A stretch of DNA of 64,000 nt, taken from positions 62,001-126,000 of the forward strand of contig RWJK01001945.1 in assembly GCA_004335835.1 (NCBI GenBank), read 5' to 3'. A program made the translations under genes and the position numbers. This DNA is from Scenedesmus sp. ARA3. Its lineage: Eukaryota; Chlorophyta; Chlorophyceae; Sphaeropleales; Scenedesmaceae. Numbering within the stretch: position 1 is the stretch's first letter; each line of letters begins with the position of its first letter. The notes under the pieces were generated by a model. That model saw nothing but the letters and a program-made list of their open reading frames with translations. It was not told the origin of the DNA and did no database searches. Shown piece by piece: positions 2,869 through 62,955 of this stretch.

Positions 2869-5800
2869 ATGGAGTGCGTGGCAGCGATAGACCAAGGCAC
2901 TCAGAGCACCAGGGTGTTCATATTCGACAAGAATGCCCAGCCCATTGCCTCTCACCAGGAGCAGTTCAAACAGATATACCCAAAGGCAGGGTGAGTTCTC
3001 AGCACAGACCACAGCTACGGCATGTGCAAGCAATTGGCATGTTCAGCTGCACAGTTACTGCTGGGACACAGCCGGGCACCACTCATCACCCTGCGCTGCT
3101 CACCCCCTGCCTTGATACAGAGAGAGCTGCTGCAGCAAGCAAGTATACTCACAGCATCCACTCTATCGCCTCTGTGTATGCTCAGCGACTTGCGCCTTGC
3201 AATCAATCGCCATAACCGCCTGTGCTGCCTGGCTTGCTGTTCCACCCGCCCATCTTTCCTGCAGCTGGTGTGAGCATGACCCCATGATCATCTGGGGCAG
3301 CGTGCAGCGCTGCATCAGCGCAGCACTAGCAGCAGCAGAGGCGGCAGCAGGCTGTGCCATCAAGGTGGTGGGCCTGGGCATCACCAACCAGCGGGAAACA
3401 ACGGTGCTGTGGTCGCGCAGCAGTGGGCAGCCGCTGCATAACGCCATCGTGTGGCTGGACAACAGGACCAGGTCAGCATCAACCAATGCTGCTGTAATGT
3501 GTTAAGCGCTGTGCTGGCAGCAATGTTTTCAGTGTGTCCAGGCACTGTCCCTGTTGGGTCTGCCTGGCTTGCAGCGAAATTGTCACGCATCGGGGGCATC
3601 ACTGCCGGGGGGCAAGACCACTCACCCGCTGCTCACACTGTCAGTGCCATGCCCTGCTGCCATTGTGCTGCTGTTGTGCTGCTGTTGTGCTGCTGTAGCG
3701 AGATCTGCCATGCCTGGGAGGCGTCACTGCCAGGCGGCAAGGTAGCCACTCACCTGCCGCTCACACTGTCAGTGCCATGCCCGCCTGCCATTCACAATGT
3801 GCTGCTGTTGTGCTGCTGCAGTGAGATCTGCCATACCTGGGAGGCGTCGCTGCCAGGTGGCAAGGACCACTTCCGGCCAGTCACTGGGCTGCCTGTGTCA
3901 ACCTACTTCTCCGCTTACAAGTTTCAGTGGATGCGCGAACATGTCCCAGAGGTGCGGCTATCAGCAAGAGAGCAACTGCAGTGGATGCAAGGGTGTAAGA
4001 TGCAGCATGCGTGGCTCGGCTGCCTGTGTCAACCTACTTTTCTGCTTACAAGTTCCAGTGGATGCGCGAACACGTGCCAGAGGTGCGGCAGCAGCAGCAG
4101 CAAAAGAACAGCAGTAGCATTTATTGAAAGTGCAGACATGGCAGAGTGACGTGCACATGCTGCTGTTTTGTGATGCAGGTGCAGCTGCACCACCGCCGCC
4201 TCGTGTTGCTGCTCGTAATAAGCGCAGGTATGATGTGTCCGCTGCTGCTGCTGCGCAGGTTGCTGCTGCGGTTGAGAGCGGTGACGCCATGTTTGGCACT
4301 GTGGACAGCTGGCTCATCTACTGCCTCACGGGCGGCGCGGATGGGGGCGTGCACGTCACCGACGGTGAGCAGCAGCAGCAGCAGCCAGCCACATTGCGGT
4401 CGAAACTTGCTGTGGACAGCTGGTTCTGCTGGCTTCGCTGACCAGGACAGGCCTTGCGTGGCCATGGAAGCTGCATGCCTTCAGATCCTTGGCGTGTTCA
4501 ATGCCCCAGTACTCCTGGTGTCTATTTTCTTGCCCCCAGCTTGTTACTACTGTTGTCCTTGCCACATCCCTGCAGTCACCAATGCATCCCGCACCAACCT
4601 GATGGAGCTGTCCAGCCTGGCATGGCATGGCCCCACACTGCAGCTGTTTGGCGCCCCCGCAGCCATCATGCCGCGCATCGCCAGCAACGCAGAGGTGTAC
4701 GGCACAGTGGCAGCAGGGCCGCTGGCAGGCGCACCCATCTCAGGTGCGAGCATCCATCATGCTACCTGCCTGGGTACCTGCTTGCTGATGTATCTTGTGA
4801 TGTCTGCACTTGAACTTGAGAACCTGAAAAGCCAGATGTCTCTCAAGCAGCCATCCTTGCTCGGCCTAACTGCGCTGTGTCTTACGCGCTCGGCCTCGCT
4901 GCACTGTGTCTTACGCGCTTATGGCTGGCCTGCCCCACTGTCCCCGTGCAGGCTGCCTGGGCGACCAGATGGCTGCGCTGCTGGGCCGGCGCGAGTCTGC
5001 ACTTGAAAACCAGAAAACCCAGGTGTCTTGCAATGTACCATCAGTGTATGCTTGGCCTAACATAAAGCTGGTGCATGTTTTGCTGGCCTGCCTCACTTTC
5101 CCCCAGGCTGCCTGGGCGACCAGATGGCTGCGCTGCTGGGCCAGCGCGCGGCACCAGGCGAGGCCAAGAACACCTACGGCACCGGCTGCTTCATGCTGCT
5201 CAACACAGGTGAGCCGAGCTGAAAGTTTGATGGTTGGTGTTTGGCAGTTGTTTGCGACTGGCTGCGCGATGCAGCCAAGCTATGCTGCAACCAGCTCCCT
5301 TGCTTGATGTCTCCTGCCGCATACGCGCCACAGCGACTGCGCCCTGCTTCACTGCAGTCCTTTCAACCCAGCCATGTGCTTGCTGCCCCTCTGGTCCATC
5401 ACCGCTGCTGCCTCTACCCACCCCACGACCCACCCGCTGATTTCTACACAGGCCCGCACGTCACGCCAAGCAGCCACGGGCTGCGCACCACACATCACCA
5501 TAGTAAGATATTTCTTTTCTTACAACTCTTTGCTAAACACACAACCTTTCTGTCAACTCACAGGCCCGCACATCACGCTCAGCAGCCACGGGCTGCTCAC
5601 CACGCTGGCGCACCAGCTGGGCCCCAGCGCCAGCCCCAGCTATGCGCTGGAGGGCAGCGTGGCAGTGGCGGGGCTGGGCATCAGCTGGCTGCGCGACAAC
5701 CTGCGGCTCATCGATTCAGCAGACGACAGCGAGCCCATTGCAGCCTCGGTGAGCGGCATTTGGCTATCGCAGCTGCAGAGTTGTCCAATTTTCCTGGGAG

Positions 5801-61425: not shown

Positions 61426-62955
61426 TCAGCAAACTAACTCAGGATATAGTCCAGGGTTCATGTATGGGATGAGCGCCATAGCCACAACCTGCTCATAATA
61501 ATCCGCGCGTGTGACTACATCGTGCGTCAAATGCCCCACGGTGCCGCTGCCCTTGCCAGATTCGAAACGGCCAAATAACATGTCATCTGCAGCTCCTAGC
61601 TCCAGGCCCTGCTGCAGCACCAGGTCTGCCAGCTGGCGTGGCAGCAGGAACTCTGCCGACCTGGCAGTGCTGATGGCACCTGCGGATGGGAGAGCGCGAA
61701 GCAAGGCAGACGCATCAAGTTGTCACTTGCAAGTGCCGCAAAGCTGTTCCCGAGGAATGTGTGGCTAAACCTGTGGGTCGGCTCTGGCAACATGCTGTGG
61801 TGCAGCACAGAGGGTTTGTGGTACCTGTCCACCTGCTGCAGCGTGTTGCTGGCTGGCAAAAATGCAAGTTCCTGCCGTAACCAGCAGCAGGAATTCTGCT
61901 GACCTGGCGGTGCTGATGGCACCTGCGGGTGGGGCAAGGACAGCCAATTTGTGTGGCAGGAGCAACGCAGGCGCGTCAAGTTGTCGCTTGCAAGCGCGGC
62001 GCAGCAGGCGTGACGTGCTTGATGCGTCCTTGGGTCTTGCTGCCTCTACGGAATGTGTGGCTGATCCTGTGGGGTGGTCCTGGCAACATGCTGAGCAGCA
62101 GCACAGAGGATTTGCCCATTACCTGTCCACCCGCAGCAGCGTGTTGCAGGCTGCATTGCAAAGGGATCTTCTGCCGTACCCAGAAGAATCAACCCCGCAC
62201 CTCACCTGCTGCCGCTGAGGCTTGCTTCACTGCTGCCCAGGCGAAGCAGTGCAGGCCATCACTGCCGCGCTGCAGCAGCCCTCCCTCGATTGACACAAGC
62301 AATGCATCTTTGGGCCAGTCCTGGCGCTGCCTGTGTATGCTGTGGATGCGGTTCACGGCCCTGCAGGCAACACGCCGCTGAGTCTGTGACAAGGAGTTTC
62401 CACAGCACCTGGGAGGTGCTAGTGCTGCTGCCGCCTGCACATCAGCTGCATGCTGAGGCGGCTGGCATTTGCTAGTGCTGCTTGCTCATGCTTTCAGCTC
62501 TGGTCTGCTTGCTGGCGTCCACAGCACCGTGCAGCACCAGTACTGCCTGAATGCACCAAAGCTCAGTTGTTCATTGCTGCTGTTGCTGTAGTAATGCTGC
62601 GCGCACCCTTTGAGTGTCTCCTCGTCTCCCATCGGCTGGCCTGGCACACCCGACTCGCTCTCAACACCTGCACAGGCAACACACCCTGCTTTTAGCTCCA
62701 CTACTAGTGCCGCTTGAAGCGCGCTGGAACCAATAGGCTGCATAGCACCTCAGGGCGAACTAGCCTTTTACCAAATGCATAGTAGCTGCAGGCCAGTGCA
62801 TGCTGGTTGTACAATCACATAAGCGCACCTTGAAACACCATGCGTCTGCGTGGAAAGCAGCGCTGCACAGCAGCAGTGGCCGCTGCAATCTTGGCAGGGT
62901 TCTTGCTGGCCACCACCACCAGGCGGTCACCACCCGGCACCAGCAACCCTCCCAT
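61426..62955 (-). CDS. inosine/xanthosine triphosphatase, YjjX/DUF84 family
   Basis: House-cleaning nucleotidase that hydrolyses non-canonical purine triphosphates (ITP, XTP) so they are not built into nucleic acids. Four exons chain in phase to 198 aa: 62955..62829, 62667..62607, 62360..62206, 61679..61426. Family segments in order: VVVASKNPAKIAAATAAV (phosphate-binding N-terminus), ESGVPGQPMGDEETLKGA (nucleobase/phosphate loop), AVNRIHSI, ALLVSIEGGLL (acidic metal-binding Glu), ARSAEFLLPRQLADLVLQ, GSGTVGHLTHDVVTRADYYE and a final VAMALIPYMNPGLY. Length is close to bacterial YjjX (about 170 aa). The start is the first ATG before the conserved beta strand. No targeting peptide is obvious. Intron 3 carries a copy of the exon 4 start. 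Confidence 0.88.
61700..62190 (-). repeat. duplicated intron 3 segment with exon 4 start copy in the phosphatase gene
   Basis: A copy of the exon 4 start (GAISTARSAEFLL after an AG) begins at 61922, 243 bp upstream of the real start at 61679. Intron blocks such as GGAATGTGTGGCT, GGCAACATGCTG and CAGCGTGTTGC occur in both 61700..61880 and 61970..62160, so most of the intron is made of two diverged units. Confidence 0.9.

Follow-up and report, generated by a model that had tools for sequence, protein, structure and literature searches.

In the green alga Scenedesmus sp. ARA3, many introns appear to have been lengthened by short tandem duplications across splice junctions, which leave copies of the neighbouring exon edge inside the intron. 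We examined 64,000 nucleotides of contig RWJK01001945.1 (positions 62,001 to 126,000), called here the window, i.e. 64 kb of a genome assembly totalling 87.3 Mb in 1567 contigs. Six hand-curated genes of the window display 30 such copies at 20 junctions and in 20 of 60 introns, five of the six genes carrying copies, and to these are added three copies of an exon end in a cysteine protease gene and two of the end of the coding sequence (CDS) of a glycerol kinase gene. This agrees with the original prediction, made from the letters of the window, of more than 30 copies over about 20 junctions. The structure is real, non-random and frequent. It is best explained, and in our opinion quite probably, by mirage-type arrays arising from local tandem duplications of about 95-155 bp across splice junctions.

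The copies follow a rule of side, also anticipated in that prediction: exon starts are copied upstream and exon ends downstream. Its frequency was determined in 324 kb, consisting of the window and 26 stretches of 10 kb on five other contigs (C116, C74, C159, C199 and C255), annotated with a self-trained hidden Markov gene model using genome sequence only, exons and frames outside the hand-checked genes being predictions. The model called 492 introns and 537 exons, with donor CAG/GTGAG and acceptor TGCAG/G (slash at the junction). The edge scan used 345 of the 537 predicted exons, namely those that measured at least 60 bp and had 700 bp or more of flank, and a copy had to reach a score of at least 40 within 700 bp. 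Exon starts were copied upstream in 39 of 322 cases and exon ends downstream in 27 of 321, while the wrong side gave 0 of 231 and 2 of 233, respectively. The middle of exons (4/147 and 1/143), the flank of another exon (1/322 and 1/321), the reverse complement (0 and 0) and shuffled sequence (0 and 0) served as further controls. Edges with a copy numbered 26 of 144 in the window, 26 of 261 on C116, 5 of 135 on C74, 8 of 53 on C159, 1 of 35 on C199 and 0 of 15 on C255; outside the window this makes 40 of 499, about one in 12. The arrangement is direct and local. Compared with a control offset by 6 kb, local direct repeats amount to 78:2 in the window, 84:19 on C116, 46:0 on C74, 34:0 on C159, 11:0 on C199 and 8:0 on C255, and self-comparison of the window yielded 41 near direct pairs, one far pair and three inverted ones.

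Splice dinucleotides are mostly retained, as had been claimed. Among the 28 window copies that reach the junction, AG is kept in 18 of 20 and GT in 7 of 8, one of the AG misses arising because the exon start had been placed at 44770, 3 bases past 44767. Taking the best copy per edge reaching the junction, the sample gives 33 of 38 and 17 of 21. Identity between a window copy and its exon is 81-100%, and 27 of the 30 were compared in ungapped alignments.

Are these copies really intronic? Window genes were corrected by hand and matched to families: glycerol kinase (TIGR01311, 647 bits versus a cut-off of 590), cysteine protease (PF00112), an alginate-lyase-like gene (PF05426, 22.6 bits versus 22.2), an ARF-GEF of BIG type (PF09324) and an ITP/XTP-type NTPase (PF01931). 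The Pfam scan found no family for a gene listed as a membrane protein; for another, listed as bZIP, it gave a coiled-coil match below threshold only, so that this name is not confirmed, although the gene does carry two donor-side copies. With the intronic copies left out, glycerol kinase forms one unbroken frame of 618 amino acids and the ARF-GEF frame is open across 12 exons (44167-51871), whereas the uncorrected gene model inserts the copies as repeated peptides. ARF-GEF relatives (best 120 of 199) include proteins of Haematococcus (61-72% identity), Sanguina (68%) and Volvox (61%), the two top matches showing 58%; an in-frame stretch at 44650 had been omitted by hand before these domain and relative searches. 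Of nine copy-carrying proteins predicted on the other contigs, four were scanned, and each has a Pfam match (Glyco_hydro_1, Aminotran_5, Aldedh and AAA_12). By the logic of the encoded proteins, the copies are thus presumably intronic.

The spacing of the copies is characteristic. For 58 edges, a further one whose copy lay 24 bp away being excluded, the nearest copy lies at 95-155 bp in 42 cases and at 188-348 bp in 16, many of the latter falling near two units, and at less than 90 bp in none. A free scan gave 5 of 92 exon/intron pairs below 90 bp (24, 37, 40, 42 and 80). Short units may be scarce because they leave too little space to fit in another complete splice site. Taken modulo 3, the spacings of the 58 edges are unevenly distributed, with 16 at remainder 0, 15 at remainder 1 and 27 at remainder 2.

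Copy number goes along with intron length across the 60 window introns (Spearman 0.68, p=2e-9; slope +171 bp per copy), the median being 262 bp for the 40 introns without copies versus about 910 bp for the three introns with three or four. The automatic annotation shows no greater length for introns that adjoin a copied edge (median 172 bp, n=58, versus 237 bp, n=438; p=0.08), because, we suppose, copies are often called as exons. Consequently, of the proposal that tandem duplication is the main way in which introns lengthen here, the lengthening itself is supported in the window, while its predominance is unproven genome-wide, given the proportion of copied edges outside the window and the automatic lengths.

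For the intronic half of the unit, we compared by local alignment the filler between copy and exon with the sequence beyond the copy. Homology between the two reached p<=0.05 in 30 of 58 pairs, and p<=0.01 in 22 of these; the pairs are partly non-independent, some arrays entering via more than one edge, and the control pool included the edges' own flanks, making some p values too large. These pairs represent 58 of 66 copied edges, those left out having copies that stop before the junction or fillers of insufficient length. In some of them the whole unit is repeated, as in the 128 bp ending at 53182. The exon halves differ by 5.7% in pairs with homologous filler (p<=0.01, 20 ungapped pairs) versus 9.8% in those without (p>0.1, 22 pairs). 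A neutral simulation in which the functional exon alone is constrained, covering acceptor units of 95-140 bp, gives 5.0-6.3% (homologous filler, limit p<=0.02) and 11.5-14.3% (none). In a fixed-window version of the test (40 pairs, limited among other criteria to distances of at most 200), about half of the pairs seemed to combine a conserved exon copy with an intronic half unrelated to it (19 of 40 at z<2), with 7 of 40 in the extreme class versus 0-1.3% expected under a neutral model, likewise of acceptor units of 95-140 bp. We discarded this result as largely an artefact of the fixed window, because indels and repeat expansions had shifted the homologous stretch, as is evident at 48567 and 47967; local alignment and the matching simulation remove most of the discrepancy.

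Searched genome-wide, skipping very common words, two fillers and one exon edge stayed at home: the filler 5492-5563 matched itself alone, the second was likewise found at one place in its own array, and the 60-bp exon edge at 50781 had matches within its own array only. A diverged allele or paralogue as the source of the copies was also considered and rejected, since two regions of the window searched genome-wide returned themselves plus short or low-complexity matches, one of these searches having scored 40 of 220 candidates.

How would such arrays be built? A tandem duplication of about 95-155 bp crossing a splice junction would create a unit that is part intron and part exon edge. When an acceptor is crossed, splicing to the last AG would yield the old mRNA; when a donor is crossed, splicing from the first GT would do so. 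The mRNA would thus be unchanged and the intron would gain one unit, the spare copy staying inside with its splice dinucleotide. From then on, both intronic halves would drift while only one of the exon halves would, the exon half remaining recognizable longest because its functional counterpart is held by selection. Repeat-mediated exchange among units could later add or remove some of them, up to four or five per junction. The proposal that tandem duplication over junctions leaves decoy AG and GT inside the intron is supported.

Several observations weigh against this explanation. Filler homology is absent (p>0.1) in 24 of 58 pairs, whereas the simulation expects this in 19-30% of pairs, and a well-kept exon copy stands beside unrelated filler in 4 of 58, with 0.4-1.6 expected (0.7-2.8%). 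Differences between copies and exons fall at third codon positions in 208 of 329 cases (0.63), exceeding the 0.51-0.57 of the neutral simulation. The copy rate varies among contigs (0-15% outside the window; chi-square p=8e-4). The thirteenth ARF-GEF exon, as set, breaks the frame, and the open frame can continue through the 117-bp unit at 44650. Finally, when local repeats at 85-160 bp spacing are merged into events, 34 are at junctions, 5 are intron-only and 5 unannotated, and the excess persists outside the window (24:3:5; p 1e-4 to 3e-4; 0.003-0.007), in a count that leans to junctions through the cluster rule, under which any junction pair makes a cluster "junction", and through copies called exons by the gene model.

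This concentration at junctions is the result that simple neutrality fails to explain. If events were placed at random and then decayed, those at junctions would be expected at 1.13-1.26:1 relative to intron-only ones and at 1.22-1.35:1 relative to unannotated ones. The remaining events comprise 4 exon-only, 2 exon-to-unannotated (the cysteine protease and stop-codon arrays) and 1 mixed. Unmerged pairs number 46 at junctions, 11 intron-only and 13 unannotated, and the event ratio is 34:7:5 when spacings of 70-170 bp are admitted. Tandem repeats of the short class (15-69 bp) display the opposite placement, with 4 at junctions, 15 intron-only and 10 unannotated (long versus short class, junction versus intron-only: Fisher p=1e-6). 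The excess may mean that junctions attract duplication. Breaks, nicks or replication stalls would then arise preferentially at exon/intron borders, for instance coupled to transcription or splicing, and fill-in during their repair would duplicate a stretch of about 100-150 bp, making junctions hot spots rather than merely tolerated sites. The several-fold excess over random placement, inside and outside the window, and the contrasting placement of short repeats speak for such targeting, and a break-repair route to small tandem duplications is described in mammalian cells (PMC8355091). On the other hand, the event count carries the bias mentioned above, and the same excess could arise if junction arrays outlive others and re-expand, with the functional exon as a permanent homology partner. 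We regard targeting as possible but rather doubtful. Equally tentative is its broader form: splice junctions in this algal lineage would attract a distinct class of 95-155 bp tandem duplication, and this process, rather than transposons or generic slippage, would be what makes introns unusually long in these algae and would keep providing spare splice sites and exon edges.

Selection could instead maintain the copies because they act as splicing enhancers or serve as alternative or poison exons, and the way in which the copies have diverged bears on this. Over 85 ungapped copies (9 gapped ones left out), differences at codon positions 1, 2 and 3 number 68, 53 and 208 for 1348, 1349 and 1335 sites. 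Rooted by at least two copies, differences unique to the copy are 12, 18 and 38 and those unique to the functional edge 4, 3 and 12, one array entering twice and the cysteine protease exon end being set 5 bases too far in these counts. This third-position bias, one copy with nine of nine differences at third positions, and the general retention of AG and GT would fit selection. However, a neutral copy beside a constrained exon reproduces most of the bias, copies lacking AG (5/38) or GT (4/21) occur, and 42 of 58 spacings are not multiples of three, so that use of the copies would usually shift the frame. We thus consider maintenance by selection improbable. Once the neutral simulation is accounted for, a small third-position excess remains, and some copies may be former functional exon edges exchanged through unit turnover. 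Mutability as the cause of the bias was rejected, since from base and CpG context the three codon positions should mutate at nearly the same rate. Gene conversion acting on the exon half was rejected as well, two toy models giving at most 7% of pairs with well-kept exon copy and unrelated filler and a third-position share of at most 0.45. In the array 50265-50780, two filler types follow each other in mixed order and some units are near-identical, data that the conversion models did not reproduce.

Introner-like mobile elements would account for the regular spacing and the many introns affected if each exon copy were a long target-site duplication made on insertion, and it is chiefly in rapidly evolving lineages, green algae among them, that introners have been found (PMC9860276). 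We nevertheless judge them very unlikely here: the two fillers searched are confined to their own locus, near direct pairs dominate the self-comparison of the window, and the copies sit within introns with the junction at their edge, 30 of 58 fillers matching sequence beyond the copy. An assembly artefact, for which gaps in the scaffold such as the 50 Ns at 13978-14027 might speak, can practically be dismissed in view of the many independent differences between copies and exons, the presence of copies on five of six sampled contigs and the strict rule of side.

Gene by gene, the duplications across splice junctions take the following form. In glycerol kinase (forward strand), exon starts are copied with their AG at 3700-3742 (exon start 3822, 123 bp upstream, 93%, filler homologous), 4952-4993 (5107, 155 bp, 98%), 5452-5491 (5564, 112 bp, 90%, followed by the filler 5492-5563) and 5947-5991 (6065, 118 bp, 87%), and an exon end with its GT at 4015-4082 (exon end 3951, 131 bp downstream, 91%). 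The CDS end 7301-7350, including its TAG, recurs twice in the 3' flank within 7413-7594 (7413-7460 and 7545-7594); these stop-codon copies follow the same logic at a boundary devoid of splice site. At about 6310-6780 of the same gene, low-complexity stretches coding for polyalanine and polyglutamine match dozens of places in the genome.

The cysteine protease gene (reverse strand) contains within 10744-10959 three copies of an exon end at about 11019 (10926-10959, 10835-10866 and 10744-10777), 90-93 bp apart and all with CAG/GT; in part of the copy analyses this exon end was placed at 11014, 5 bases into the intron. The gap at 13978-14027 lies within a CAG run in an intron of this gene. On the reverse strand too, the alginate-lyase-like gene carries an exon-start copy at 17133-17161 (17061, 100 bp upstream, AG kept, 93%) and an exon-end copy at 17704-17737 (17905, 201 bp downstream, GT kept, 94%), the bZIP-like gene two copies of the exon end 34593 within 34342-34497 in a 130-bp unit (34465-34497 with GT, 34342-34376 with GT lost), and the NTPase gene one copy at 61884-61922 (exon start 61679, 243 bp upstream, AG kept).

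In ARF-GEF (forward strand), single copies of exon starts keep AG at 39530-39565 (39640, 111 bp upstream, 89%), 47448-47492 (47546, 98 bp, 96%, filler not homologous), 47967-48006 (48155, 188 bp, 97%, filler homologous) and 48567-48620 (48686, 119 bp, 91%). The copy at 44650-44686 (exon start 44767, 117 bp upstream) keeps CAG, its unit being the one that also reads through in frame, and it appears as 44653 with 'CA' in the scoring that placed this exon start 3 bases too far on. A weak copy at 47046-47083 (47133, 98 bp, 82%) stops short of the junction. Arrays of exon starts comprise four copies within 50265-50701 (50265-50312, 50402-50450, 50531-50564 and 50652-50701; exon start 50781, AG in three of four, two filler types), two within 51217-51514 (51217-51271 and 51461-51514; 51689, AG kept) and four within 52648-53054 (52648-52688, 52779-52814, 52883-52926 and 53011-53054; 53139), where the last 128-bp unit differs from the real one at one aligned base only. 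The exon end 45058 has three copies within 45246-45749 (45246-45303, 45497-45542 and 45713-45749), all with GT, and another exon end, 48888, one at 49064-49132 (244 bp downstream, GT kept). Comparison of 48792-48899 with 49036-49143 reveals nine differences in the exon part, all at third codon positions, such that the copy encodes the same peptide; this may be due to chance or to a past as functional exon edge.

Elsewhere in the window, a separate tandem array with a 40/80-bp period occupies 59158-59315 in a poorly supported gene region. GC content of the window is 52-61% by 4-kb block and CAG/CTG runs are abundant. In the genome at large, the words GTAAGTTAAGGCTAAGAG recur at 9 listed places across many contigs, perhaps as a repeat family.

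If such events also occur in other algae, duplication across junctions, with about one 120-bp unit gained each time, is a concrete and testable candidate route to long algal introns. Gene finders are predicted to insert false repeat peptides at such junctions. Moreover, the arrays offer a large natural set of duplicated splice sites in which to ask which of two near-identical sites the spliceosome uses. Duplications of this general type are not confined to the alga: a survey of internal gene duplications carrying splice sites reportedly found them common in many genomes, and is said to count internal duplications and new introns in model genomes rather than exon-edge arrays remaining in introns. 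In potato, a duplication crossing a junction made a new intron (PMC4974935). There, as in the alga, the unit consists of the 3' end of an intron and the 5' part of an exon and the splice signals are inherited; it made a new intron and exon, whereas the algal cases checked lengthened an existing intron. New introns by exonic duplication (Rogers-type, AGGT) were not seen in the hand-checked genes, which were viewed without a relative's gene structure for intron age, and the idea in the original prediction that such duplications could found new introns or exons gained no demonstrated example. Introners (PMC9860276) also alter the intron content of many genes, green algae included, but form families of similar sequence spread between genes, unlike the two algal fillers tested.

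The closest relatives are the amphioxus mirages, known in Adh3, the globins BflGb6 and BflGb9, troponin C and PGBD5 (PMC3087553, PMC3902484), which contradict the statement of the original prediction that no named system matches. Mirages have the same structure as the algal arrays, i.e. direct tandem repeats with a unit spanning the intron/exon boundary; in both systems 5' and 3' boundaries are affected and many, though not all, units keep AG or GT. Adh3 mirage units measure 10-72 bp, and regular splicing, seen by RT-PCR, and copy-number polymorphism are reported for mirages. Copy number differing between haplotypes, somatic instability and concerted evolution within arrays are also mirage traits. 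In the alga, represented by one genome assembly, the glycerol kinase frame and 12 exons of the ARF-GEF frame are open once the copies are left out, which bears on splicing indirectly. Among the literature matches listed for algae, no title or abstract beginning reports such arrays, which is not proof of absence. The alga differs from amphioxus in its chlorophycean lineage, in the spread of copied edges beyond the window and in having few units below 90 bp. The algal arrays are thus of a known kind, the mirage, and what is new is the algal lineage, the scale, the scarcity of units shorter than 90 bp and the excess at junctions.

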